Source: Betaproteobacteria bacterium (GTDB taxonomy: Bacteria > Pseudomonadota > Gammaproteobacteria > Burkholderiales > Ga0077523). From it: a DNA stretch of 44,484 bases. Below, piece by piece: positions 2,233 to 13,914 of this stretch (position 1 is the stretch's first letter; every line of letters starts with the position of its first letter). A model generated the notes under the pieces. That model ran no database searches and was not told where the DNA came from. It saw only the letters and a program-made list of their open reading frames with translations. The position numbers and the translations under genes are program-made. Location: positions 1 through 44,484 of the forward strand of contig WGLR01000034.1 of assembly GCA_016125475.1 (NCBI GenBank), written 5' to 3'.

Positions 2233-3237
2233 TCACTTCATGCCCATCGCCACCGATGCGTCCATCGTGTCCTCGATCCTCGGAATCTTCCTGATCTCGC
2301 CCTTTGCCTTCAGGATCCGGGAGATCAGTCCGCCGCTCGTGTACAGCGACACCGTTTCGTCACTCCTGTTGAAGACCTTCGGGAACTCCGCGAATGTCGG
2401 GTTGTAGACGCCGGACATCTGCTCCATCACTTCCTTGTCGCTGATCCCCATGACCTTGCCGATCAGCTTCGCCGCTTCGGCAGGATGCTTCTTCATGTAG
2501 TCGAGACCATCGATGTAGCCCTGGATCAGGGCCTTCACGACTGCCGGGTTCGCGCGGATGTATTCCGACTTGAACACGAGGACGTCCGTGATGAGCCCGG
2601 GTGCATTCTTGGTCGAGAACACGACGTGGAACTTGTCACCGCCGCCCATGCCCACGATTTCCGAGACGCTGGGCTCGTACGTGACGCCGATCTTCACGCC
2701 GCCGGAGGCCATCGCAGCGGGCACGCTCTCCGGCGACATGTTCACGGGCTTCACGTCCTTCTCGGAGAGGTTGTTGGTCTGCAGCGCATAGGACAGCAGG
2801 AAGTCCGAAGGCGAGAGCGGATTGAACGCGATCTTCTGGCCCTTGAACTGCGCGATCGAAGTGATGTCCTTCGACGCGACGATCGCGTCGCCGCCGCTCG
2901 AGTAGTCGATGGGCATCACGACGCGCATCGTCGACCCTTTCGCCACGGCGCTGACGACCTGGTCGTACGTGATCATGCCGCCGTCGACCGTACCGCCCGT
3001 CACCGCGGGCGGAATCAGTGCGGGATCGTTGAACGTCTGCAGCGACACCTTCACGCCCGACTTCCGGAAGTAGTCGAGCTGGTCGGCCACGTAGAACGGA
3101 CCATAGCCGATCCAGACGACCGTGCCGATCTTGACGGTCGACGCGGCGAACGATGCAGGGGACGCGAAGAGGGCGGGCAGCGCAGCGAGAAGCGTGAATG
3201 CCAGGTGGCGGATGAAGCTGGAACGCATTGCGATCAT
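2233..3237 (-). CDS. ABC transporter substrate-binding protein (second, guanidine-riboswitch controlled)
   Basis: A periplasmic binding protein of the SsuA/NMT1-like family (nitrate/sulfonate/taurine type), about 334 aa. The signal peptide ends near SFAA before STVKIG. The start at 3237 is preferred because GGGAG lies 7 nt upstream; an in-frame ATG at 3228 lacks such a site. It is a divergent paralogue of the binding protein at 3990: both have a hydrophobic start with VKIG or IKVG, a GLI-D-LV segment and a C-terminal helical region. It has no permease or ATPase of its own nearby, so it may share the divergently encoded ones. The leader carries a guanidine-I riboswitch and a sigma-54 promoter, so the ligand is probably guanidine or a close relative (inference). 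Confidence 0.85.
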   Translation of the reverse strand: MIAMRSSFIRHLAFTLLAALPALFASPASFAASTVKIGTVVWIGYGPFYVADQLDYFRKSGVKVSLQTFNDPALIPPAVTGGTVDGGMITYDQVVSAVAKGSTMRVVMPIDYSSGGDAIVASKDITSIAQFKGQKIAFNPLSPSDFLLSYALQTNNLSEKDVKPVNMSPESVPAAMASGGVKIGVTYEPSVSEIVGMGGGDKFHVVFSTKNAPGLITDVLVFKSEYIRANPAVVKALIQGYIDGLDYMKKHPAEAAKLIGKVMGISDKEVMEQMSGVYNPTFAEFPKVFNRSDETVSLYTSGGLISRILKAKGEIRKIPRIEDTMDASVAMGMK

Positions 3238-3270: not shown

Positions 3271-3392
3271 GGAGAGCCGTTTCGCTCTCCCGGGCTTTTG
3301 TCCCTCCGTGGAGCCTCCCGCGCGGGAAGGCCGGTTGCTCTCGGACCAGACGTCACGCGCTAGCGTGACCGGAACCCTAGCGACCCTGGTCG
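3271..3392 (-). promoter_or_regulatory. Guanidine-I (ykkC) riboswitch, leftward, with downstream hairpin
   Basis: Read on the minus strand, the conserved guanidine-I aptamer blocks occur in order: CTAGGGTTCCG (about 3380-3370), CTGGTCCGAGAG (about 3350-3339), then GGAGGGACAAAAGCCCGGG (about 3310-3290). The last block differs from the usual GGGATAAAAGCCC by one base. A perfect 7-bp hairpin GGAGAGC...GCTCTCC (3290-3271) overlaps the aptamer 3' end and is followed by TTTGCC. It is the likely expression platform, although the U-run is weak for a terminator. The gene start is 34 nt downstream. Confidence 0.9.
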
Positions 3393-3439
3393 ACGTCCCG
3401 CACCGAGGCGCGAAACCGCTCACCGTCTGCCCACGTTTC

Positions 3440-3455
3440 TGCAATCGCGGTGCCA
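3440..3455 (-). promoter_or_regulatory. Sigma-54 promoter, leftward
   Basis: The minus-strand sequence TGGCACCGCGATTGCA matches the sigma-54 consensus TGGCAC-N5-TTGCA exactly, with GG and GC 12 bp apart. Transcription would begin near 3429, about 40-50 nt before the guanidine-I aptamer. It mirrors the promoter at 3771 on the other strand. Confidence 0.85.
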
Positions 3456-3770
3456 GGACTGTCGTGGACCACATCGGGATGGAAAATCAGTGCTTTGCGA
3501 GCCGGTGTGCGAATCCCCGGGCGGAAGACCCGCCGCCCCCCGCACCGTTCCAATGCGTGCAGGCCACGTGTCTGTGCGATCGTGGTGCCGATTCATCCGT
3601 CATCCGCGGCCCGGTCGGGACGCGGGCAATTCGCGCGTCCGGCGGTGCCACCCCTGGAAATCCACCGACCCGCACCGTGCCGGCGCGTCGCAGCGCTTTC
3701 GTGCACGGAGTCGGTGCGCCTGAACGCCGCGGCCGCGCCGCTTCGTGAAGAAAACCGGACGAATCAGTGA
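3456..3770. other. Central control region between divergent sigma-54 promoters
   Basis: This 315-bp stretch holds no convincing gene. It is where an enhancer-binding activator (NtrC or similar) would be expected to bind. Several GTGC/GCAC half-sites occur, for example GGTGCC near 3584, but I do not see a clean GCAC-N7-GTGC NtrC palindrome. Confidence 0.5.
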
Positions 3771-3786
3771 TGGCACAGCCATTGCG
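3771..3786 (+). promoter_or_regulatory. Sigma-54 promoter, rightward
   Basis: TGGCACAGCCATTGCG matches TGGCAC-N5-TTGCA except for the last base, with correct -24/-12 spacing. The predicted transcript start is near 3797, about 35 nt before the conserved CTAGGG of the riboswitch. This is consistent with nitrogen-limitation control of a guanidine-nitrogen pathway. Confidence 0.85.
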
Positions 3787-3827
3787 AAAGCGCAGGGCGA
3801 GAGGAGCGACACCACCTCGCTCTTGTC

Positions 3828-3940
3828 GTTGTCGACTAGGGTTCCGGTCGCGCGAAGGCGTGACGTCTGGTCCGAGAGTCGACGGTCTCGCGGTCAGTGT
3901 GTGCGGGGCTCCACGGAGGGATAAAAGCCCGGGAGGCCGA
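3828..3940 (+). promoter_or_regulatory. Guanidine-I (ykkC) riboswitch, rightward
   Basis: The conserved blocks of the guanidine-I aptamer appear in order: CTAGGGTTCCG (3836-3846), CTGGTCCGAGAG (about 3872-3883) and CACGGAGGGATAAAAGCCC (about 3912-3930) followed by GGGAGG. The aptamer is an imperfect inverted copy of the one at 3284-3392. Downstream, TCTCC (about 3956-3960) can pair with GGAGA of the Shine-Dalgarno region of the gene at 3990, which suggests translational control. No intrinsic terminator is seen, so the mechanism is inferred. Confidence 0.92.
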
Positions 3941-3989
3941 GTGGTAGACGCGTCCTCTCCGACTTCGATCAGCCCACGGGAGATTTGCA

Positions 3990-4976
3990 ATGCACACGGT
4001 CCGCTCCATCGCTCGCGTCGTCGCCGCGTCGCTTCTCGGCACCTTCCTGTTCGCAGCCGCGCCGGCTCGCGCCGAAATCAAGGTCGGCTACAGCGACTGG
4101 CCCGGCTGGGTCGCGTGGGCCATCGCCGAGCAGAAGGGGTACTTCAAGAAATACGGTGCGAAGGTGAAGCTCGTCTGGTTCTCGAACTACAGCGACTCCA
4201 TCTCCGCCCTGTCTGCCGGCCAGCTCGACGCCAACTGCCAGACGTGGTCCGACACGATGGCGCCGCTCGCGAAGGGGATCCCGCTGAAGGTCGTTCTCGT
4301 GAACGACAACTCCGCCGGCAACGACGCGCTGATGACGGGGCCCGCCATCAAGTCGTTCGCCGCGCTGAAGGGAAGGAAGATCGCGCTCGAGGAATACAGC
4401 GTGTCGCACTTCCTGCTCGCGACTGCGCTCAACCGGAACGGCATGACGCCGAAGGACGTGAACATCGTGAACATGGCGGCCGGTGACGCGGCAGCTGCGT
4501 TCATCAGCGGGCGGGTCGATGCGGCGGTCGTCTGGAACCCCTGGGTCAACAAGATCGAGCTCTCCGGCAAGGGCAAGCCGCTGTTCTCGTCGAAGGAGGT
4601 GCCCGGCCTCATTCCCGACCTGCTCGTCGCGCAGGAGAAGTCTCTCGCCGCGAACCGCCAGGACTACGCCGGCATGATCCGCGCGTGGTACGACGTGGTG
4701 AAGTTCCTGCGCGAGCACCCCGACGAGGCCGTGAAGATCATGTCTAAGGTCGTGGGACTGTCTCCGGACGAGTACAAGGTGTTCCTGCCCGGCACGCACT
4801 TCTTCGACCAGAAGGCCAATCTCGAGGCATTCGGCACGGACACGTCGACGACGAAGACGCTCGTGGGCTCGGCACCGACGATCCTGAAGTTTCTCGACGA
4901 GAACAAGCTGATCGACGGCAAGCCCGACTACGCGAAGGCACTCGACGGATCGCTCGTGCGCCAGATCGCGAAGTGA
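3990..4976 (+). CDS. ABC transporter substrate-binding protein (guanidine operon)
   Basis: First gene of the rightward guanidine operon: a 328-aa periplasmic binding protein of the SsuA/NMT1-like family. The signal peptide of about 28 aa ends in PARA before EIKVGYSDWPG. The start ATG has GGGAG 7 nt upstream. The family delivers small nitrogen or sulfur compounds to a nitrate/taurine-type ABC importer. With a guanidine riboswitch upstream and guanidine-degrading enzymes downstream, guanidine is the likely ligand. The permease and ATPase genes follow directly. Annotation pipelines may label such proteins as urea, nitrate or taurine binding. Confidence 0.9.
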   Translation: MHTVRSIARVVAASLLGTFLFAAAPARAEIKVGYSDWPGWVAWAIAEQKGYFKKYGAKVKLVWFSNYSDSISALSAGQLDANCQTWSDTMAPLAKGIPLKVVLVNDNSAGNDALMTGPAIKSFAALKGRKIALEEYSVSHFLLATALNRNGMTPKDVNIVNMAAGDAAAAFISGRVDAAVVWNPWVNKIELSGKGKPLFSSKEVPGLIPDLLVAQEKSLAANRQDYAGMIRAWYDVVKFLREHPDEAVKIMSKVVGLSPDEYKVFLPGTHFFDQKANLEAFGTDTSTTKTLVGSAPTILKFLDENKLIDGKPDYAKALDGSLVRQIAK

Positions 4977-4990
4977 CGGGAGCCACCTTC

Positions 4991-5806
4991 ATGGCCCGTA
5001 ACGGCAATTCAGCGAGGCCAGGCCTCTGGTCCATTCGCGGTCCGATGTCGCAGCGCCGCTACTGGATCTTCGCGGCGATCGGGCTTCTCGTTCCGATCGC
5101 CGCCTGGTGGCTCATCGCGACCTCCGGGTTCGTCGAGAAGGTGTTCATGCCCGCGCCGGGTTCGGTCTGGTCGCGAACGATGCTCTGGCTGCAGGAAGAC
5201 AATCTCCTCGCGGACATGGGCATCAGCATCTATCGCGTGACGATGGGCTGGGCGCTGTCCGCCGTGATCGCCCTGCCGCTCGGCCTGCTCATCGGAACCT
5301 TCCGTCCGGTGCAGGCGCTGCTGGAGCCGCTCACGGACTTCATCCGGTACATGCCCGCGGTCGCGTTCATCCCGCTCGTGATGCTCTGGATCGGGATCGA
5401 CGAAGGCTCGAAGATCGCGATCATCTTCATCGGCACGTTCTTCCAGATGGTGCTCATGGTTGCCGAGGACGTGCGTCGCGTGCCGTCCGCCCAGATCGAG
5501 GCCGCCCAGACCATGGGCGCGACCCGCGGGGAGATCATCAAGCTCGTGCTGCTGCCGTCCGCGAAGCCCGCGCTGCTCGACACCATGCGCGTGACGATGG
5601 GCTGGGCGTGGACCTACCTCGTGGTGGCCGAACTCGTCGCGGCGAATTCCGGGCTCGGCTACGCGATCCTGAAGGCCCAGCGGTTCCTGCAGACCGACAA
5701 GATCTTCGCGGGAATCATCCTGATCGGGCTCATCGGCCTGGTCATCGATCAGCTGTTTCGTCTCGCCCACCGCAAGGCATTTCCATGGATGCATCTAAAG
5801 TCGTGA
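4991..5806 (+). CDS. ABC transporter permease (guanidine operon)
   Basis: Inner-membrane permease of the SsuC/TauC/NrtB type, 271 aa with about six membrane spans. The EAA loop that docks the ATPase reads EAAQTMGATRGE followed by LP-S-P. The ATG at 4991 is preferred because GGGAG lies 8 nt upstream; a GTG at 4973 overlapping the previous stop is possible but has no such site. The next gene starts inside its 3' end with a 22-nt overlap, indicating tight coupling. It probably forms the translocation pore of a guanidine importer, as a homodimer in this family. Confidence 0.9.
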   Translation: MARNGNSARPGLWSIRGPMSQRRYWIFAAIGLLVPIAAWWLIATSGFVEKVFMPAPGSVWSRTMLWLQEDNLLADMGISIYRVTMGWALSAVIALPLGLLIGTFRPVQALLEPLTDFIRYMPAVAFIPLVMLWIGIDEGSKIAIIFIGTFFQMVLMVAEDVRRVPSAQIEAAQTMGATRGEIIKLVLLPSAKPALLDTMRVTMGWAWTYLVVAELVAANSGLGYAILKAQRFLQTDKIFAGIILIGLIGLVIDQLFRLAHRKAFPWMHLKS

Positions 5807-6651
5807 CCCTCGCACCGAAGATCCGGGTCCGCAGTCTCGGCAAGATTTTCGAGGGGCCCCGGCCTGTGGTCGCACTCGAGGACATCAATCTCGACGTGCA
5901 GGACAACGAGTTCGTGACGCTGGTCGGCGCGTCGGGGTGTGGCAAGTCCACGCTGCTGCGCATCATCGGCGGCCTCGAATACCACACGAGCGGAGAAGTG
6001 ATCGCAGGTGGCCGAGCGATCTCGGGTCCCGGCTCGGACCGGGCGATGGTGTTCCAGCACTACAGTCTGTACCCGTGGCTGAACGTCATCGACAACATCC
6101 GGTTCTCGCGCCGGCTTCGGGTCAACAGGGAGGACCTCACGTCGGCGGACGTGGAGCGCGCGTCGGGGCGCGCCGACGCCCTGCTCAACCTGATGGGGCT
6201 TCCCTCGATGGCGGACGCGTTCCCGAGCCAGCTCTCGGGTGGCATGCAGCAGCGCGTCGCGATCGCGCGGGCACTCATGCCGCGCCCCGAGATCCTGCTC
6301 ATGGACGAACCGTTCGGTGCGCTCGACGCGCAGACGCGGGAAGTCATGCACGACCTGATCCTGCACGTGTTCAGGCTCGAGAAGTCGACGATCGTCTTCG
6401 TGACGCACGACGTGGAGGAGGCGATCTATCTCGGGCAGCGCGTCGTGCTGCTCGCACCGCGACCCGGACGCATCGACACGGTCTACAAGGTGCCGTTCGG
6501 GGCGGGGCGTCGGCAGGAACTCAAGCACACGCGCGAGTTCCTCGACATGAAGAAGGAGATCCTCGAACGCATCCGCGAGACCTCCGGCATGAAGACCGAC
6601 ACGGACCTGCTCGAGCGCATGTCGCGCGCGGCCGGGCAGGGAGAGGAATGA
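5785..6651 (+). CDS. ABC transporter ATP-binding protein (guanidine operon)
   Basis: ATPase of the SsuB/TauB/NrtD type, 288 aa. Walker A is GASGCGKST (about 48-56), the Q-loop is VFQHYSLYPW (about 89-98), the signature is LSGGMQQR (about 150-157), Walker B is ILLMDEP (about 170-176) and the H-loop is VTHDVEEA. The ATG at 5785 lies within the permease gene. The C-terminal extension of about 50 residues, rich in charged helix, is common in this branch. It powers the import system encoded by the two preceding genes. Confidence 0.92.
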   Translation: MDASKVVTLAPKIRVRSLGKIFEGPRPVVALEDINLDVQDNEFVTLVGASGCGKSTLLRIIGGLEYHTSGEVIAGGRAISGPGSDRAMVFQHYSLYPWLNVIDNIRFSRRLRVNREDLTSADVERASGRADALLNLMGLPSMADAFPSQLSGGMQQRVAIARALMPRPEILLMDEPFGALDAQTREVMHDLILHVFRLEKSTIVFVTHDVEEAIYLGQRVVLLAPRPGRIDTVYKVPFGAGRRQELKHTREFLDMKKEILERIRETSGMKTDTDLLERMSRAAGQGEE

Positions 6652-6706
6652 CGTGTGCCCCGGCCCCTCGCGGGACGGGGAGCGCACTCGACGGAAGAAC
6701 GACGAC

Positions 6707-7429
6707 ATGACTGCAGACAAGGACATTCTCTGGGAAGAAACCGTGCCGGGCGGGTGCCACTGGTCGGGCGTGATCCGGCGTGGCACGGCACTCACGCTCA
6801 CCGACGTCGAAGGGCGCGCGAATCTCGCGATGCTGCTCTTCAATCACGAGGAGCGGTTCGAGCGATACAACATGCCCGACACGCTGAAGGCCCAGCACAC
6901 CGCGTTTCTCACGCACGGCAACGTCCTGTACACGGACATGGGGCGGGCACTCGCGTCCGTGATGGCGGACACGTGCGGCTGGCACGACACGGTGTGCGGC
7001 GTCATGGACGACGCGACACTGGAGATGCGGTTCGGCCGTCGCGCCTACCAGGACTACCGCAACGGCATGACGCGAAGCGGACGGGAAGGATTCCTGAAGG
7101 AACTTGAACGCAACGGTCTCGGGCGACGCGACCTGCACGCCAACGTGAACTGGTTCAGCAAGATCGTGACGGATGCCGAGGGCGGCCTGCACTTCGAGGC
7201 GTCGCACCGCGAGCCCGGACAGCGGATCGACCTGCGCTTCGACATGCACGCGCTCGTGGTCCTGTCCGCGTGTCCGCACCCCCTGGATCCCGCCACGCAG
7301 TGGGAACCGGCTCCCGTGAAGCTCACGGCGTGGCGGTGCGGCGTCGCCGGCAGGGACGACCGCTGCCGGAACCACCGGCCCGAGAACCAGCGCGCGTTCG
7401 TGAACACGGAGCGGTATTTCGGTGAATGA
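6707..7429 (+). CDS. cgdB: Carboxyguanidine deiminase subunit, DUF1989 family (urea carboxylase-associated protein 2 type)
   Basis: A 240-aa DUF1989 protein. The conserved DTCGWHDT segment contains the Cys/His metal-binding residues of this family, and N-NWF and FDMHALVV are further family blocks. These proteins, long annotated as urea carboxylase-associated, have been reassigned as subunits of carboxyguanidine deiminase, which removes one nitrogen from carboxylated guanidine to give allophanate. The larger size and first position fit the B (UAAP2) subunit. The ATG at 6707 has GGAAG 9 nt upstream and skips an 18-residue extension without family similarity. Its partner gene follows after an inserted repeat element. 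Confidence 0.85.
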   Translation: MTADKDILWEETVPGGCHWSGVIRRGTALTLTDVEGRANLAMLLFNHEERFERYNMPDTLKAQHTAFLTHGNVLYTDMGRALASVMADTCGWHDTVCGVMDDATLEMRFGRRAYQDYRNGMTRSGREGFLKELERNGLGRRDLHANVNWFSKIVTDAEGGLHFEASHREPGQRIDLRFDMHALVVLSACPHPLDPATQWEPAPVKLTAWRCGVAGRDDRCRNHRPENQRAFVNTERYFGE

Positions 7430-7435
7430 GGGCCA

Positions 7436-7632
7436 GGTTCGAGGTTCCAGGCGATAGGCGATAGGCAATAGGCAATAGGCGATGGGCGACAGGCGATGGG
7501 CGACAGGCGATGGGCGACAGGCCACGGGCCGGCTGCTTCCTTCCCTCCCCCGCACGGCGGGGGAGGACCAGGGAGGGGGCAGGTCTCTTGACCCCTGCCC
7601 CGCACCGCGGGGGAAGGAAGGGAGGGGGGATG
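7436..7632. repeat. Composite repeat inside the operon, inverted relative to the genes
   Basis: Twelve heptamers in one register (7436-7519) begin as GGTTCGA/GGTTCCA and change to GGCGATA, GGCAATA, GGCGATG and GGCGACA. Two G/C-rich hairpin tracts follow (about 7543-7580 and 7589-7629). Read on the minus strand, the order is C-tract hairpins then heptamers, the same as in the other copies. The element is thus inserted opposite to the operon direction. It separates cgdB from cgdA, but cgdA keeps a good ribosome binding site. Confidence 0.85.
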
Positions 7633-7663
7633 ATTCGAACGATGGATGCATACGGAGGCAACC

Positions 7664-8326
7664 ATGCTGACTGAGAGTTCGCGCGACAGCGCGCTGGCGC
7701 TCGTCGACGAGATCTGTCCGGCCGGCGAGCCGTGGATGAAGACGATCCGGAAGGGGCAGGTGTTCCGCATTCTCGACCTGGAAGGCAACCAGGCCGTGGA
7801 CACGCTGTTCTACAGCGCGGACGATCCGGAGGAACGCTACAGCGCGGTGGACACGATCCAGCGCAACCGGAATCTCTACCTGACGGCCGGTTCGCGCCTG
7901 TACTCGACCGAGGGCAACGTGATGCTCACGATCGTCGCAGACACGTGCGGTCGCCACGACACGCTCGGCGGCGCCTGTTCCCAGGAGAGCAACACCGTCC
8001 GCTATGCGCTCGACAAGCGCTTCATGCACGCGTGCCGCGACAACTTCATGTCGGCGATCGCCCACGACCACGAGCATCGCCTTTCGAAGCGTGACATCAC
8101 GCACAACATCAACTTCTTCATGAACGTGCCGGTGACACCGGAAGGCAGGCTCACGTTCGAGGACGGCATTTCCGCCGCGGGGAAGTACGTCGAGATGCGC
8201 GCCGAGATGGACGTGGTGTGCCTGATTTCCAACTGCCCGCAGCTCAACAATCCCTGCAATGCCTACAACCCGACACCGGTGAGGCTGCTGGTGTGGGAGG
8301 GCGGGCCGGACGAGAAGCGGGGGTAA
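7664..8326 (+). CDS. cgdA: Carboxyguanidine deiminase subunit, DUF1989 family (urea carboxylase-associated protein 1 type)
   Basis: A 220-aa DUF1989 protein paralogous to the product of the gene at 6707. It shares the block [17 protein letters not shown] and the C-terminal LISNCPQ-NNPCN, a Cys-containing motif typical of the A subunit. The start at 7664 is chosen for GGAGG 5 nt upstream; an in-frame ATG at 7646 is less likely. It probably forms a heteromeric carboxyguanidine deiminase with the product of the 6707 gene. A perfect hairpin and a heptamer array separate it from the carboxylase gene. Confidence 0.87.
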
Positions 8327-8378: not shown

Positions 8379-8469
8379 CCCCGAACCCCGAACCCCGAGC
8401 CCCGAACCCCGAACCCCGAACCCCGAACCCCGAACCCCGAACCCCGAACCCCGAACCCCGAACCCCGAA
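8379..8469 (+). repeat. CCCCGAA heptamer array, 13 copies
   Basis: Thirteen units of CCCCGAA, the third reading CCCCGAG, are followed by a truncated unit. The array ends 11 nt before the ATG of the carboxylase gene (8481). It replaces the region where a ribosome binding site would lie: only CCCGAATTCCG precedes the start codon. Confidence 0.95.
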
Positions 8470-8480
8470 CCCGAATTCCG

Positions 8481-11400
8481 ATGTTCTCGAGCGTCCTCAT
8501 CGCCAATCGCGGCGCGATCGCCTGCCGCGTGATCCGTACCCTGCACCGGATGGGTGTCCGTGCCGTCGCGGTGTACTCCGAGGCCGACGTCGCCTCGCTG
8601 CACGTCGCCGAAGCCGACGAAGCGGTGTGCGTGGGCCCGCCCCCCGCAGCCGAGAGCTATCTGCGCGTCGACCGGATTCTCGACGCGGCGCGGGCGACGG
8701 GAGCGCAGGCCATTCACCCGGGATACGGCTTCCTGTCCGAGAACGCCGATTTCGCGCAGGCCTGTGCCGACGCGGGCATCGTGTTCATCGGACCGCGTCC
8801 CGCGCACATGCGCGCGTTCGGGCTGAAGCACACCGCCCGCGAGATCGCACGCGAGAACGGGGTGCCGCTGCTGCCCGGCACCGGACTGCTCCGGGATGTT
8901 GCGGAGGCGCGCGCCGAAGCGGCACGCATCGGCTATCCCGTCATGCTCAAGAGCACGGGCGGGGGTGGCGGCATCGGCATGCGTCTGGTCTGGAGCGAGT
9001 CCGAACTCGCGGAAGCATTTGCCGCGGTCGAGCGGCTCGCGCGCGCGAACTTCAGCGACGCGGGCATGTTCCTCGAGAAGTTCGTCGCGAACGCACGGCA
9101 CGTCGAGGTGCAGATCTTCGGCGACGGGCGGGGCCACGTCGTCGCGCTCGGGGAGCGCGACTGTTCGGTGCAGCGACGCAACCAGAAGGTCGTCGAGGAA
9201 ACGCCCGCGCCCGGTCTTGCGGACTCGACACGCGCACGGCTGCACGAGACGGCCGTGGCACTGGGCCGCTCGGTCGGGTATGCCTCCGCAGGCACGGTCG
9301 AGTACGTGCTGGACGCCGATACCGGCGAGTTCTATTTCCTCGAGGTGAACACGCGGCTTCAGGTCGAGCACGGTGTGACCGAGGAAGTCACGGGCGTCGA
9401 CCTGGTGGCGTGGATGGTGCGCGAGGCGGCCGGCGAACTCGATCTCCGTGACGAGGTGATCCGGCCGCGCGGGGCGTCGATCCAGGTGCGTCTGTACGCG
9501 GAGGATCCCGCGAAGAACTTCCAGCCGTCCAGCGGCGTGCTCACGGCAGCAGAGTTTCCGTCGTCGGCGCGCGTCGAGACGTGGGTCCGCAACGGCGTGG
9601 AAGTGCCGCCCTATTACGACCCGATGATCGCGAAGATCATCGTCCGCGGAGACGACCGGGCGGCTGCGCTCGCCGCGCTGCGCGTCGCGCTCGACCGGAC
9701 GCGTGTGGCCGGCATCGAGACCAACCTCGCGTACCTGCGGCAGGTGGTCGCGGACCACACGTTCGAAGCGGGGCGCCAGACGACACGCTTCCTCGCCGGC
9801 CTGCACTACGTGCCCGCGACGATCGACGTCCTCGAACCCGGCGTGCAGACCACCGTTCAGGACTGGCCCGGGCGCACCGGGTACTGGGCGGTCGGCGTGC
9901 CGCCGTCCGGTCCCATGGATCCGCTCGCGATGCGACTCGCGAACCGGCTCGTCGGCAATCCGGAAGGCACCGCAGCACTCGAATGCACGGCGACGGGACC
10001 GACCCTGCGGTTCAACATCGACACGGTGATCGCCGTCTGCGGTGCCGCGATGCCGGCGGAACTGGACGGCCGGACCCTCGCACCGTGGGCTTCGCACGCG
10101 GTCAGGGCGGGCAGCGTGCTGAGGCTGGGGCGCCTGGGCGGCGCCGGGCTGCGCACCTACGTCGCGGTGGCGGGCGGCATCGACGTGCCCGACTATCTCG
10201 GATCGAAGGCGACGTTCACGCTCGGGCAGTTCGGTGGCCACGCAGGGCGCACGCTGCGCGCGGGTGACGTCCTGCCGATCGCGCGCATCGATCCGCTCCC
10301 GGCAGTTCGTGTCCTGTCCGAGGCGCTCGTTCCGCGCTACACGTCACGGTGGGAGGTCGGCGTCCTGTACGGTCCGCACGGCGCGCCCGACTTCTTCACG
10401 GACGAGGACATCGCCACGTTCTTCGACACGGACTGGGAGGTGCACTACAACTCCAGCCGGACCGGCGTGCGGCTGATCGGTCCGAAGCCGGCCTGGGCGC
10501 GCCCGGACGGTGGCGAGGCGGGCCTGCATCCGTCCAACATCCACGACAACGCCTACGCGATCGGCGCGATCGACTTCACGGGCGACATGCCCGTGATCCT
10601 GGGGCCGGACGGCCCGAGTCTCGGCGGCTTCGTGTGTCCGGCCGTCGTCGCGGACACGGAACTGTGGAAGACCGGGCAGCTCCGTCCCGGAGACACCGTG
10701 CGGTTCGTGCGGGTGGATCAGTCCTGGGCACGACGGCAGGAGGCGCTCGCCGGAAAGGCGGTCGCGACACTGCGAACACCTCGTGCGCCCCGCGACGGGG
10801 GCGGTCCGGTGCTCCCGTCGCCCGTGCTGCACACGCTGCGCGCAACCCGGTCGCGACCGCGCGTCGTGTACCGGCAGGCCGGCGACAAGTGGCTGCTCGT
10901 GGAATACGGCGAGCTGCGGCTCGATCTCGATCTGCGCTTCCGCGTGCACGCGCTCGCGCAGTGGCTCGAGGCGCAGCGCATCGACGGCGTCGTCGACCTC
11001 ACGCCGGGCATCCGCTCGCTGCAGGTCCATTTCGACAACCGCCGGCTGCCGCTCGACCGGCTGCTGGACATGCTGATCGACGCGGAACGCGAGCTGCCCG
11101 CCGTCGACGACATGGTGGTGCCCACGCGCACCGTGCACCTCCCGCTGTCGTGGGACGACCCGGCCACGCGTCTGGCCATCGAGAAGTACACGCAGTCCGT
11201 GCGGCCGGACGCCCCCTGGTGTCCGAGCAACATCGAGTTCATCCGGCGCATCAACGGACTCGACAGCGTTGAGGACGTGCGCCGGATCGTGTTCGACGCG
11301 TCGTATCTGGTGCTGGGCCTCGGCGACGTGTATCTCGGCGCACCCGTCGCGACGCCGGTCGATCCCCGGCACCGGCTCGTGACGACGAAGTACAACCCCG

Positions 11401-12080
11401 CGCGCACCTGGACGCCCGAGAACGCGGTCGGCATCGGCGGCGCCTATCTCTGCGTCTACGGCATGGAGGGCCCGGGCGGCTACCAGTTCGTGGGACGGAC
11501 CGTGCAGATGTGGAACCGCTATCGCCGGACGGCCGAGTTCGCGGCGGGCACGCCCTGGCTGCTGCGGTTCTTCGACCAGATCCGGTTCTTTCCCGTGAGC
11601 GAGCGCGAACTGCTGAAGATGCGCGAGGACTTCCCGCTCGGCCGTTACCGTCTCCGGATCGAGGAAGGGGAGTTCCGTCTGGCCGACTACCACCGGTTTC
11701 TCGACGATCATGCGGCGGGCATCCGCACGTTCAAGGCTCGGCAGCAGGCCGCGTTCGAGGCCGAGCGCGAGCGCTGGCGGGCGGCCGGCCACGCGGAGTA
11801 CGCGGGCGACGCACAGGTCGCGCTCGCGTCCGCGGAGACGGAACTGGATCTTCCCGAGAACGGGCGCGCGGTGGCCACGCACGTCGCGGGCAATGTCTGG
11901 AAGGTGCCCGTGCGCGACGGCGAGCGCGTGAAGGCCGGCGATGCCCTCGTGATCGTCGAGTCCATGAAGATGGAGATCAACGTCACCGCGCCCTGCGACG
12001 GGACGATATACCGGACCTTCTGCCGCGAGGGCAGCCAGGTCGCCGCCGGACAGGACCTCGTCGTGATGATCGAGGGATGA
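8481..12080 (+). CDS. Biotin-dependent guanidine carboxylase (annotated family: urea carboxylase)
   Basis: A 1199-aa multidomain enzyme. It comprises a biotin carboxylase/ATP-grasp domain (about 1-450, with GGGGGIGMRLV and EVNTRLQVEHGVTEEVTG), an AHS2/KipA-like half (about 450-760, starting VLEPGVQTTVQDWPGR) and an AHS1/KipI-like half (about 790-1020) that together form the carboxyltransferase. A biotinyl domain with ESMKME follows, biotin on Lys1163. Length and order match urea carboxylase. Enzymes of this type preceded by a guanidine-I riboswitch and encoded with DUF1989 partners carboxylate guanidine in preference to urea; I infer the same here. The start is fixed by the canonical MFSSVLIANRGAIACR, yet no Shine-Dalgarno is present because a heptamer array abuts it. 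Substrate preference needs an active-site alignment. Confidence 0.9.
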   Translation: MFSSVLIANRGAIACRVIRTLHRMGVRAVAVYSEADVASLHVAEADEAVCVGPPPAAESYLRVDRILDAARATGAQAIHPGYGFLSENADFAQACADAGIVFIGPRPAHMRAFGLKHTAREIARENGVPLLPGTGLLRDVAEARAEAARIGYPVMLKSTGGGGGIGMRLVWSESELAEAFAAVERLARANFSDAGMFLEKFVANARHVEVQIFGDGRGHVVALGERDCSVQRRNQKVVEETPAPGLADSTRARLHETAVALGRSVGYASAGTVEYVLDADTGEFYFLEVNTRLQVEHGVTEEVTGVDLVAWMVREAAGELDLRDEVIRPRGASIQVRLYAEDPAKNFQPSSGVLTAAEFPSSARVETWVRNGVEVPPYYDPMIAKIIVRGDDRAAALAALRVALDRTRVAGIETNLAYLRQVVADHTFEAGRQTTRFLAGLHYVPATIDVLEPGVQTTVQDWPGRTGYWAVGVPPSGPMDPLAMRLANRLVGNPEGTAALECTATGPTLRFNIDTVIAVCGAAMPAELDGRTLAPWASHAVRAGSVLRLGRLGGAGLRTYVAVAGGIDVPDYLGSKATFTLGQFGGHAGRTLRAGDVLPIARIDPLPAVRVLSEALVPRYTSRWEVGVLYGPHGAPDFFTDEDIATFFDTDWEVHYNSSRTGVRLIGPKPAWARPDGGEAGLHPSNIHDNAYAIGAIDFTGDMPVILGPDGPSLGGFVCPAVVADTELWKTGQLRPGDTVRFVRVDQSWARRQEALAGKAVATLRTPRAPRDGGGPVLPSPVLHTLRATRSRPRVVYRQAGDKWLLVEYGELRLDLDLRFRVHALAQWLEAQRIDGVVDLTPGIRSLQVHFDNRRLPLDRLLDMLIDAERELPAVDDMVVPTRTVHLPLSWDDPATRLAIEKYTQSVRPDAPWCPSNIEFIRRINGLDSVEDVRRIVFDASYLVLGLGDVYLGAPVATPVDPRHRLVTTKYNPARTWTPENAVGIGGAYLCVYGMEGPGGYQFVGRTVQMWNRYRRTAEFAAGTPWLLRFFDQIRFFPVSERELLKMREDFPLGRYRLRIEEGEFRLADYHRFLDDHAAGIRTFKARQQAAFEAERERWRAAGHAEYAGDAQVALASAETELDLPENGRAVATHVAGNVWKVPVRDGERVKAGDALVIVESMKMEINVTAPCDGTIYRTFCREGSQVAAGQDLVVMIEG

Positions 12081-12108: not shown

Positions 12109-13914
12109 ATGCCCGCATTCTCGCCCCTCACGATCGGATCACTCGCTTCGCGCTACCGCGCGGGCACGCTCACGCCCCTGCAGCTCGTCGACGCGCTCGG
12201 CGACCGGCTCCATGCGGAGGACACGCACGCGGTCTGGATCCACCGCCTGCCCCGGGAGCGCCTGGTCGAGTACGCACGCGCACTCGCAGGGCGCGATCCC
12301 GCTTCGCTGCCGCTCTACGGCGTGCCCTTCGCGGTCAAGGACAACATCGATCTTGCCGGCGTGCCGACGACTGCTGGTTGCCCGGACTTCGCGTACGTGC
12401 CGCAGTCCAGCGCGACCGTGGTGCAGCGGCTGATCGACGCGGGCGCGATTCCCGTGGGCAAGACGAATCTCGACCAGTTCGCGACGGGGCTCGTCGGTAC
12501 CCGGTCTCCCTACGGCGCGTGCCGCAACGGTTTCGATGCGCGCTACGTGTCCGGCGGGTCGAGCTCGGGCTCGGCCGTCGCGGTCGCGACCGGTCTCGCC
12601 GCGTTCAGCCTCGGGACCGACACGGCCGGTTCCGGCCGCGTGCCCGCCGCGTTCAACAACCTCGTCGGACACAAGCCCACGCGCGGCGTGCTCTCGGCGC
12701 GCGGCGTCGTGCCGGCCTGTCGCTCCCTGGACACGATCTCGGTCTTCGCGCTCACCGCCGCGGACGCCGCACGCGTGATGGACGTCGCGTGCGCGTTCGA
12801 CGAGGAGGACGCATTCTCGCGGCGTGCCGAACCGAGTCCCGCGGAATGGGGAAAGGGCTTCCGGTTCGGCGTGCCGACGCGCGAGTGCCTCGAGTTCTTC
12901 GGAAACGACGACTATCGCGAGCTCTTCGGCCGTGCGGTGGAGACGCTGACCGCCCTGGGCGGGGTGGCCGTACCGGTGGACATCCGGCCCATGCTCGAGG
13001 CGGCCCGCCTGCTGTACGACGGGCCGTGGGTCGCCGAGCGCTACGCAGCCATCCGGGCATTCTTCGACAGTCACGAGGCGAGCCTGCACCCCGTCACGCG
13101 CGAGATCATCGGCAGGAGCCGTTCGTGGCGTGCGTCCGACGCCTACGACGCCCTGTACCGGCTCATGACACTGCGCCGCGAGGCCGACCGTACGTGGGAG
13201 GCCGTCGACGTCGTCGTGACGCCGACGGCGGGGACGATCTACACCATCGACGACGTCGACGCGGATCCGCTCCGGCTCAACGCGAACCTGGGCCACTACA
13301 CGAACTTCATGAACCTGCTCGACTACGCGGCGACGGCCGTGCCCACGGGGTTCACGCCGGCGGGCCTGCCATTCGGCGTGACGCTGTTCGCACCGGCCCA
13401 CACCGACACGTCCCTGCTGCACCTCGCGTCGCGCGTGCAGCGCGCGTCCGGCGGGACGCTGGGTGCGACGGGGGCGGCCGCCGAGCCGGACGACCTTGCC
13501 CTGCCGGAACGTCCGAGTGGGGGCGTCGTTCACGTCGCGGTCTGCGGCGCGCACATGTCGGGGCTGCCGCTGAACGTGCAGCTCACGTCACGGGGTGGCC
13601 GGCTCGTCGAGAAGACGCGCAGTGCCTCCTGCTACCGGTTCCACGCGCTGCCCGGCGGGCCGCCGGAGCGCCCCGGCATGGTCCGGGTCGCGAAGGATGG
13701 CGTCGCGGTCGAACTCGAGGTGTGGGCGATGCCGGTCCGCGAGTACGGCAGCTTCGTCGCGGGCATTCCGGCCCCCCTCGGCATCGGGACCGTCCTGCTC
13801 GAGGACGGCCGCGGCGTCCAGGGCTTCGTGTGCGAGGCCGTGGCTGCTGCCGGGGCGCGGGACATCTCGGAATACGGCGGCTGGCGCGCGTATCTCGCCG
13901 CGCAGGCTTCGTGA
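12109..13914 (+). CDS. atzF: Allophanate hydrolase
   Basis: A 601-aa amidase-signature enzyme that hydrolyses allophanate to CO2 and two ammonia, the last step of the pathway. The catalytic triad is visible as Lys77 (AVKDNIDLAG), cis-Ser151 (SGGSSSGSA) and nucleophile Ser175 (GTDTAGSGRVPA), the two serines separated by the usual 24 residues. The C-terminal domain (about 455-601) is the small allophanate hydrolase domain present in full-length AtzF-type enzymes. It starts 28 nt after the carboxylase stop and ends the operon, with a convergent transglutaminase-like gene 25 nt away. Confidence 0.93.
   Translation: MPAFSPLTIGSLASRYRAGTLTPLQLVDALGDRLHAEDTHAVWIHRLPRERLVEYARALAGRDPASLPLYGVPFAVKDNIDLAGVPTTAGCPDFAYVPQSSATVVQRLIDAGAIPVGKTNLDQFATGLVGTRSPYGACRNGFDARYVSGGSSSGSAVAVATGLAAFSLGTDTAGSGRVPAAFNNLVGHKPTRGVLSARGVVPACRSLDTISVFALTAADAARVMDVACAFDEEDAFSRRAEPSPAEWGKGFRFGVPTRECLEFFGNDDYRELFGRAVETLTALGGVAVPVDIRPMLEAARLLYDGPWVAERYAAIRAFFDSHEASLHPVTREIIGRSRSWRASDAYDALYRLMTLRREADRTWEAVDVVVTPTAGTIYTIDDVDADPLRLNANLGHYTNFMNLLDYAATAVPTGFTPAGLPFGVTLFAPAHTDTSLLHLASRVQRASGGTLGATGAAAEPDDLALPERPSGGVVHVAVCGAHMSGLPLNVQLTSRGGRLVEKTRSASCYRFHALPGGPPERPGMVRVAKDGVAVELEVWAMPVREYGSFVAGIPAPLGIGTVLLEDGRGVQGFVCEAVAAAGARDISEYGGWRAYLAAQAS

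Follow-up and report, generated by a model that had tools for sequence, protein, structure and literature searches.

The GG at −24 and the GC at −12 are the typically invariant bases of the sigma-54 promoter element, and the NtrC-type palindrome has the consensus GCAC-N7-GTGC. In an RNA-seq study of Burkholderia cenocepacia H111 under nitrogen limitation, a log2 change of −6.0 was given for I35_7286 (urea carboxylase) in an ntrC mutant, and the entries of the same table for I35_7283 (binding protein) and I35_7285 (UAAP-like) read "na(m)", a mark left unexplained in the passages available (PMC5491218). In those passages, the authors described I35_7283-7286 as urea genes whose transcription is down-regulated in the mutant. 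In a sigma-54 prediction study, 59% of 102 COG3665 genes were identified as urea carboxylase; that paper holds no word beginning with "guanidin" and has "riboswitch" in a reference only (PMC12316311).

At guanidine-I riboswitches, bound guanidine lets transcription proceed, according to the available part of PMC11410670, a paper that also describes guanidine-I loci of comammox Nitrospira. Excerpts from a recent review treat as still debated how far bacteria meet guanidine as a nutrient or as a stressor and give guanidine as the sole nitrogen source for a Raoultella terrigena isolate (PMC12186494). Further regulon papers searched by gene name gave no match, and no paper joining NtrC/sigma-54 control with a guanidine riboswitch was found in the literature searched, the full texts of which were partly covered. 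The locus described here joins two literatures that are unconnected in the papers searched, one on "urea carboxylase" genes under sigma-54/NtrC control and one on guanidine riboswitches.

Materials and Methods

The window, meaning the whole stretch of DNA analyzed, comprised 44,484 nt from a Betaproteobacteria bacterium (Burkholderiales, Ga0077523; GCA_016125475.1, contig WGLR01000034.1, positions 1 to 44,484). Aptamers were searched with the Rfam RF00442 covariance model (107 positions; cut-off, 63 bits). Sigma-54 sites were scored against the 10 letters of TGGCAC-N5-TTGC, and a site counted in the surveys if it scored 9/10 or better and lay no more than 120 nt upstream of the aptamer. The order sample gave 82 rows in 50 of 399 genomes, from which two rows at contig ends with <100 nt upstream were left out, so that 80 were scored. 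Aptamers were found in 29 of 369 genomes of the class sample and in 43 of 398 genomes of the phylum sample; rows already counted in a narrower sample were excluded, giving 34 and 50 additional aptamers, respectively. The final survey set was 159 guanidine-I aptamers from 110 genomes and 56 families of the phylum sampled. Five sub-cut-off aptamers ahead of EamA genes (42.6 to 58.4 bits) were excluded from the 159; the sigma-54 promoter was absent at all five. Downstream genes at survey loci were labeled by tblastn with the window proteins and a few others. In addition, named contigs were scanned for promoter plus aptamer. This gave at least 119 stretches, all 119 loci of which were examined; since the scan demands a promoter, it is usable for breadth and not for frequency.

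Results

Two divergent promoters, each ahead of an aptamer

An earlier note on this DNA had described two TGGCAC-N5-TTGC promoters on opposite strands, each followed by a complete guanidine-I aptamer and a binding-protein gene. Both promoters match exactly, TGGCACCGCGATTGC on the minus strand (3441 to 3455) and TGGCACAGCCATTGC on the plus strand (3771 to 3785), and there is no other exact match in the window. The locations given for promoters and aptamers were right, while the ends were wrong by 1 to 3 bases. Between the two −24 elements is a stretch of 315 bp. Transcript starts are predicted from the −12 GC at about 3429 in the minus arm and about 3797 in the plus arm. The window's motif count was rejected as evidence because it is not significant once one mismatch is allowed (3 matches against 2.8 expected, which is chance level); significance therefore rests on position and on the comparative surveys. 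The genome encodes rpoN (PF00309, 66.6 bits).

The covariance search placed a guanidine-I aptamer 49 nt from the promoter in the minus arm (3285 to 3391, 94.7 bits) and another 39 nt from the promoter in the plus arm (3825 to 3937, 92.7 bits). Both are full length (positions 1 to 107 of 107) and score above the family cut-off of 63 bits, as the earlier note had led one to expect, and they are the only RF00442 matches in the 4.88-Mb genome. The two window RNAs presumably bind guanidine. A substrate-binding-protein gene follows in each arm. The long identical blocks said to be shared by the aptamers as an inverted pair were seen on comparison; since these are mostly blocks conserved throughout the family, they are by themselves no proof of recent duplication.

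The expression platforms are less distinct. In the minus leader, a hairpin read from the sequence at 3271 to 3290 (minus strand; GGAGAGC...GCTCTCC followed by TTT) overlaps the aptamer 3' end and appears in the leader fold; it was missed by the terminator scan and is a weak candidate. In the plus leader (3931 to 3959, plus strand), GGGAGG (3931 to 3936) may pair with CCTCTC (3954 to 3959), giving six pairs, one of them G-U, with no U run. The terminator scan found no clear intrinsic terminator in either window leader and a terminator-like hairpin in 36 of the 159 survey leaders, and on these counts an intrinsic terminator was rejected as the common platform. Whole-leader folding gave no clear extra stability relative to shuffled sequences for the window leaders (z, −0.06 and −1.13). 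In several leaders, pairing is seen between the conserved CCCGGGAG at the aptamer 3' end and sequence farther downstream. As the minus leader has only TTT and the plus leader has no U run, the platform may act by weak termination or on translation.

Genes of the two arms

The plus arm begins with an ABC substrate-binding protein of the SsuA/urea-carboxylase-associated type (3990 to 4976), an ABC permease (4973 to 5806), and an ABC ATPase (5785 to 6651), all on the plus strand, as are the genes that follow. These encode the two carboxyguanidine deiminase subunits of the DUF1989 type, UAAP1 (6653 to 7429, although the start may be 6710; TIGR03425, 335 bits; PF09347) and UAAP2 (7646 to 8326; TIGR03424, 349 bits), a carboxylase of the family annotated as urea carboxylase (8481 to 12080; TIGR02712, 1903 bits), and allophanate hydrolase (12109 to 13914; TIGR02713, 802 bits). 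From this context, the carboxylase substrate is taken to be guanidine rather than urea. With the ABC importer encoded alongside the carboxylase, allophanate hydrolase, and both DUF1989 subunits, the pathway set is complete, and it is the known guanidine carboxylase pathway as set out in the available text of PMC12186494.

The minus arm encodes, on the minus strand, a second ABC substrate-binding protein (SBP2; NMT1/SsuA-like, 2233 to 3237), a membrane protein of the fatty acid desaturase family (PF00487, 1113 to 2117), and a short-chain dehydrogenase/reductase (SDR, 358 to 1101). At the SDR, the arm ends in the window, close to the contig end. The desaturase-family protein, which recurs after SBP2 in related loci, is probably a di-iron oxygenase, the family's chemistry being presumably di-iron. 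SBP2 and then the oxygenase were found at 16 survey loci, the window included, and the oxygenase at 3 further guanidine-I loci without SBP2, giving a total of 19; at all 17 of these with enough upstream sequence, a site of ≥9/10 is present. The SDR joins the SBP2-oxygenase set at several named loci, and Azohydromonas (L176) is among the carriers of the module. The operon at another locus (L206) runs in the order SBP2, oxygenase, two SDRs, EamA transporter, creatininase (TIGR04448, 352 bits; cut-off, 235), biuret-hydrolase-like enzyme, and metallo-hydrolase. The biuret-hydrolase-like enzyme scores 240 bits, which is below the cut-off of 370, and is close to a solved biuret hydrolase; the oxygenase matches an arginine hydroxylase family weakly (21.5 bits; cut-off, 380). 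In the literature searched, in part, the desaturase-family protein was not tied to a guanidine riboswitch.

An altered ligand for the minus-arm aptamers was also considered and rejected. No fixed difference was found between 18 pre-oxygenase aptamers (of the 19, one truncated at a contig end was excluded) and 114 others, and a new ligand is therefore not proposed.

Sigma-54 sites ahead of guanidine-I aptamers in general

A site of ≥9/10 precedes 62 of the 80 aptamers in the order set. The corresponding controls gave a mean of 0.2 for 500 permuted motifs (maximum, 3), a mean of 0.2 for shuffled upstream sequences, and 0 for the reverse strand. The frequencies were 25 of 34 in the class set and 36 of 50 in the phylum set (permuted motifs, about 0.16). 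Over all surveys, a site of ≥9/10 stands ahead of 123 of the 159 aptamers and a site of ≥8/10 ahead of 137, counts that include related genomes and hence nonindependent observations; at least one aptamer has a site of ≥9/10 in 45 of the 56 families. The behavior of the mismatches points the same way, as none of the 82 one-mismatch sites has its mismatch in the GG or the GC, which is the expectation for sigma-54. A site of ≥9/10 comes no nearer to the Rfam model start than 5 nt, a distance at which P1 would fall at about +1. Because the gap is never below 5 nt and Rfam positions 1 to 6 are unpaired, the aptamer stem lies inside the predicted transcript. Judged from sequence, guanidine-I riboswitches across the phylum sampled are generally paired with a sigma-54 promoter.

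The promoter is not a general riboswitch trait, since it was seen at neither of two other classes. No site of ≥9/10 was found at 30 guanidine-II elements examined from matches in 83 of 398 genomes (best score, 7) or at 30 TPP elements examined from matches in 53 of 60 order genomes (best score, 8). Of the guanidine-II elements, 13 appear to precede SMR-type exporter frames (one checked by Pfam), 7 are unlabeled, and 10, which lie ahead of genes for the carboxylase or a UAAP protein, may belong to the interior of longer operons.

The scan of named contigs extends the range of hosts. Among the matches listed are Raoultella, Buttiauxella, Enterobacter, Pantoea, Pectobacterium, Psychrobacter, Alcanivorax, Pseudomonas, Stutzerimonas, Herbaspirillum, Rhodoferax, Methylophilus, and Thiobacillus. 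An NtrC-type box within one mismatch was found at 84, and an exact box at 26, of the 114 loci with at least 150 nt upstream (of at least 119); the R. terrigena locus has no box within one mismatch.

Against a general rule stand the 36 of 159 aptamers below 9/10, 22 of which are also below 8/10. The other 14 score 8/10, and an NtrC-type box within one mismatch at 9 of these suggests that some are probably weak real sites. Outside the two families considered below (f16 and f263) fall 8 of the 22.

NtrC-type boxes

The link to NtrC had been deduced in the earlier note and is supported here by comparison. The only exact GCAC-N7-GTGC box in the window (3703 to 3717) ends 53 bp before the plus −24 element. 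It is accompanied by one-mismatch boxes at 3672 to 3686 and 3690 to 3704, whereas the minus arm has a single upstream box, with one mismatch, at 3542 to 3556 (86 bp before its −24 element). These 4 boxes, two of which overlap by two bases, compare with 0.31 expected in the 315 bp between the promoters, a region chosen post hoc; over the whole window, the count of one-mismatch boxes was near chance (55 against 44 expected, matched by 8 of 100 shuffles).

In the survey, an exact box was found upstream of 31 of 121 promoters, while other spacers (3 to 12) gave 0 to 4, other palindromes of the same letters gave 0 to 3, and shuffles gave a mean of 0.7. Within one mismatch, the count was 98 of 121, compared to 19 to 41 for other spacers, 9 to 45 for other palindromes, and 14.6 for shuffles. 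Spacer 7 is the only spacer that stands out, and 28 of 34 exact boxes end 50 to 110 bp ahead of the −24 element. On the other side, 23 of 121 promoters (24 of 123 by a wider count) have no box within one mismatch. NtrC itself is present in the window's genome (TIGR01818, 707.4 bits; equivalog cut-off, 558.6), together with rpoN.

Two families without the promoter

The NtrC link is further supported by two families that lack a canonical NtrC and in which the promoter is missing. In family f16, sigma-54 sites and NtrC-type boxes were each found at 0 of 11 aptamers. All 10 genomes have rpoN, and NtrC over the cut-off was found in none of them, whereas the comparison genomes, none of them from f16 or f263, were positive in 6 of 6 cases. 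A gene of the AMO family is present in 7 of the 10 genomes and elsewhere in 1 of 31 genomes tested (G161, a weaker match). Ammonia is the energy source of ammonia oxidizers, and a nitrogen-shortage gate would therefore make little sense in f16, an argument drawn from one lineage.

In family f263, sigma-54 sites were found at 0 of 3 aptamers, and GAFTGA was missing from the best NtrC-like locus in 4 of 4 genomes, although some of these loci may be other than NtrC. Two of the three aptamers have a one-mismatch box despite the lack of a promoter, which speaks against the link. NtrC of the Rhodobacterales, a group to which f263 may belong, lacks GAFTGA, and the R. capsulatus protein is reported to work with sigma-70, as stated in the accessible portion of PMC10274813.

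Divergent pairs and Burkholderia

Divergent aptamer pairs <2 kb apart number 8 among 113 aptamer-bearing genomes. Both sites are ≥9/10 in four pairs (the window, a congener [G002], G288, and G706), three pairs have one or both sites at 8, and one pair, from family f16 (G073), has neither. A B. cenocepacia strain other than H111 also has two divergent guanidine-I aptamers, with sigma-54 sites oriented in both directions and, in the stretch between, an exact NtrC box. The same divergent twin occurs in B. pyrrocinia, with no exact NtrC box between; its flanks carry an annotated binding-protein gene and, opposite this, UAAP1, UAAP2, uca, and atzF. By names and gene order, I35_7283-7286 of B. cenocepacia (BCAS0269-0272) are apparently the same NtrC-dependent operon pair, and the passages of PMC5491218 thus add to the NtrC link a mutant in which expression of an apparently corresponding pair is lost.

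Discussion

The favored reading, to which we assign a probability of roughly 0.84, is that NtrC and sigma-54 gate transcription at both promoters and that guanidine then releases each leader. The 315 bp between the −24 elements would be a divergent, NtrC-activated sigma-54 control region. Under nitrogen shortage, phosphorylated NtrC on the GCAC-N7-GTGC boxes would cause sigma-54 polymerase to open both promoters. Each transcript would start with a guanidine-I aptamer, and with guanidine bound, expression would continue into the operon. The output would be the ABC importer and the guanidine carboxylase pathway from the plus arm and the second binding protein, the desaturase-family oxygenase, and the SDR from the minus arm, so that scarcity of nitrogen together with the presence of guanidine would switch both operons on. 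Such a double gate had been suggested in the earlier note, and the promoter and box surveys lend it comparative support.

The strongest rival accepts sigma-54/NtrC as the real control but has the riboswitch tune a leaky baseline or act on translation, without a transcriptional double gate. It draws on the absence of a clear terminator in the window leaders and on B. cenocepacia. The paper in question assigns the genes to urea and contains no word beginning with "guanidin" or "riboswitch" (PMC5491218), so that evidently no guanidine was added; wild-type transcripts were nevertheless present, and the RNA gate may therefore be leaky or translational. Two observations weigh against this rival. Both window aptamers match RF00442 over their full length, and most proteins of a guanidine-I-led operon in Vreelandella boliviensis went undetected with ammonium and reached high levels with guanidine, apart from three lower-level exceptions, in a comparison that also switches the nitrogen source (PMC12508155, available passages). 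We consider the rival unlikely, although it deserves to be taken seriously. Because the RNA step may be leaky, it is concluded with confidence that two inputs act on the operons, and a strict AND of the two is put forward as a hypothesis.

It is decidedly improbable that the sigma-54 promoters are driven by another enhancer-binding protein, for example, a sensor of guanidino compounds. The genome does encode several NtrC-like activators besides NtrC, and the 24 of 123 promoters without a box would suit such a protein. It would not account for a box enrichment that is specific to spacer 7, for the lack of sites in f16, which has sigma-54 but no NtrC over the cut-off, or for the RNA-seq result with the B. 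cenocepacia ntrC mutant in the passages of PMC5491218. Chance matches in GC-rich intergenic DNA, the impression given by the one-mismatch counts in the window, can be dismissed with near certainty, as they are refuted at the family level by the permutation, shuffle, strand, other-riboswitch, and lineage controls.

On the debate over guanidine as nutrient or stressor, the promoter class offers an answer readable from DNA: in the phylum sampled, most guanidine-I riboswitches stand behind what would be nitrogen-shortage promoters, and such promoters are lacking at the guanidine-II riboswitches examined and at the guanidine-I riboswitches of one ammonia-oxidizer family.

The minus-arm gene set appears from its recurrence to be a module that is undescribed in the literature searched, and its gene content suggests oxidation of a guanidino compound. 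We tentatively propose, while thinking it somewhat more doubtful than probable, that the guanidine-I-controlled SBP2-oxygenase-SDR set serves an undescribed uptake and oxidative release of guanidine from a larger guanidino compound. The set so read has one or two SDRs, and some loci add the creatininase and the biuret-hydrolase-like enzyme. If this is true, the divergent twin would couple guanidine release to guanidine assimilation through a single enhancer region that responds to nitrogen shortage, and free guanidine would be the signal common to both arms.

Besides the B. cenocepacia operon pair, three known systems are closest. The V. boliviensis methylguanidine module (MgdH/MgdL), as far as the passages of PMC12508155 describe it, likewise adds oxygenase genes to an assimilation unit under guanidine-I control; it uses a soluble 2-oxoglutarate dioxygenase and a lyase, whereas the window has a desaturase-family protein, an SDR, and a binding protein of its own, and no word beginning with "desaturase" occurs in that paper. 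With respect to the guanidine-I riboswitch (RF00442), the window aptamers are full-length members, and the downstream importer, deiminase, carboxylase, and allophanate hydrolase are as known. The difference is the promoter; the available text of the review PMC12186494 mentions neither sigma nor NtrC and has "promoter" in a reference only. With the NtrC/sigma-54 nitrogen-scavenging regulon, the window shares the −24/−12 promoter, the GCAC-N7-GTGC boxes, and an operon for a nitrogen source, and it would add to that regulon a further sensor, an RNA in the leader that is specific for the substrate.

Operons led by a guanidine-I aptamer and encoding a binding protein, a desaturase-family oxygenase and SDRs were found at loci L206 (464-7362, minus strand) and L184 (2155-6776, plus strand). 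A creatininase-family gene is present in each of the two, and the L206 operon additionally encodes a biuret-hydrolase-like enzyme and a metallo-hydrolase. At five other loci (L099, L104, L096, L257, and L133), the aptamer is followed by a guanidinase-like gene, and the one such gene that was checked was assigned to the arginase family. Three of these five loci are among the divergent twins, and a sigma-54 site matching at least 9 of 10 letters was observed at three of the five aptamers.

In the window itself, runs of the heptamer GAACCCC were observed close to the contig start (~301-355) and directly 5' of the carboxylase gene (~8380-8473). Short GGCAATA-type and GGCGATGGGCGACA-type repeats lie at ~7450-7520, between the two DUF1989 genes.

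An AMO-family match (266.8 bits) was present in genome G161 (contig C535, 17858-18556), in which both guanidine-I aptamers do have sigma-54 sites. Since the stated contamination of G161 is 7%, the match may be foreign to it.

Outer-membrane-type genes, encoding a TonB-receptor plug protein (L069, genome G173) and a Gcw_chp protein (L057, genome G100), lie downstream of guanidine-I aptamers with 9/10 sigma-54 sites; a role in uptake across the outer membrane is possible. EamA transporter genes are preceded by guanidine-I-like aptamers scoring below the cut-off (42.6-58.4 bits; L280, L281, L282, L080, and L081), none of the five with a sigma-54 site. These are possibly a variant with a different ligand.
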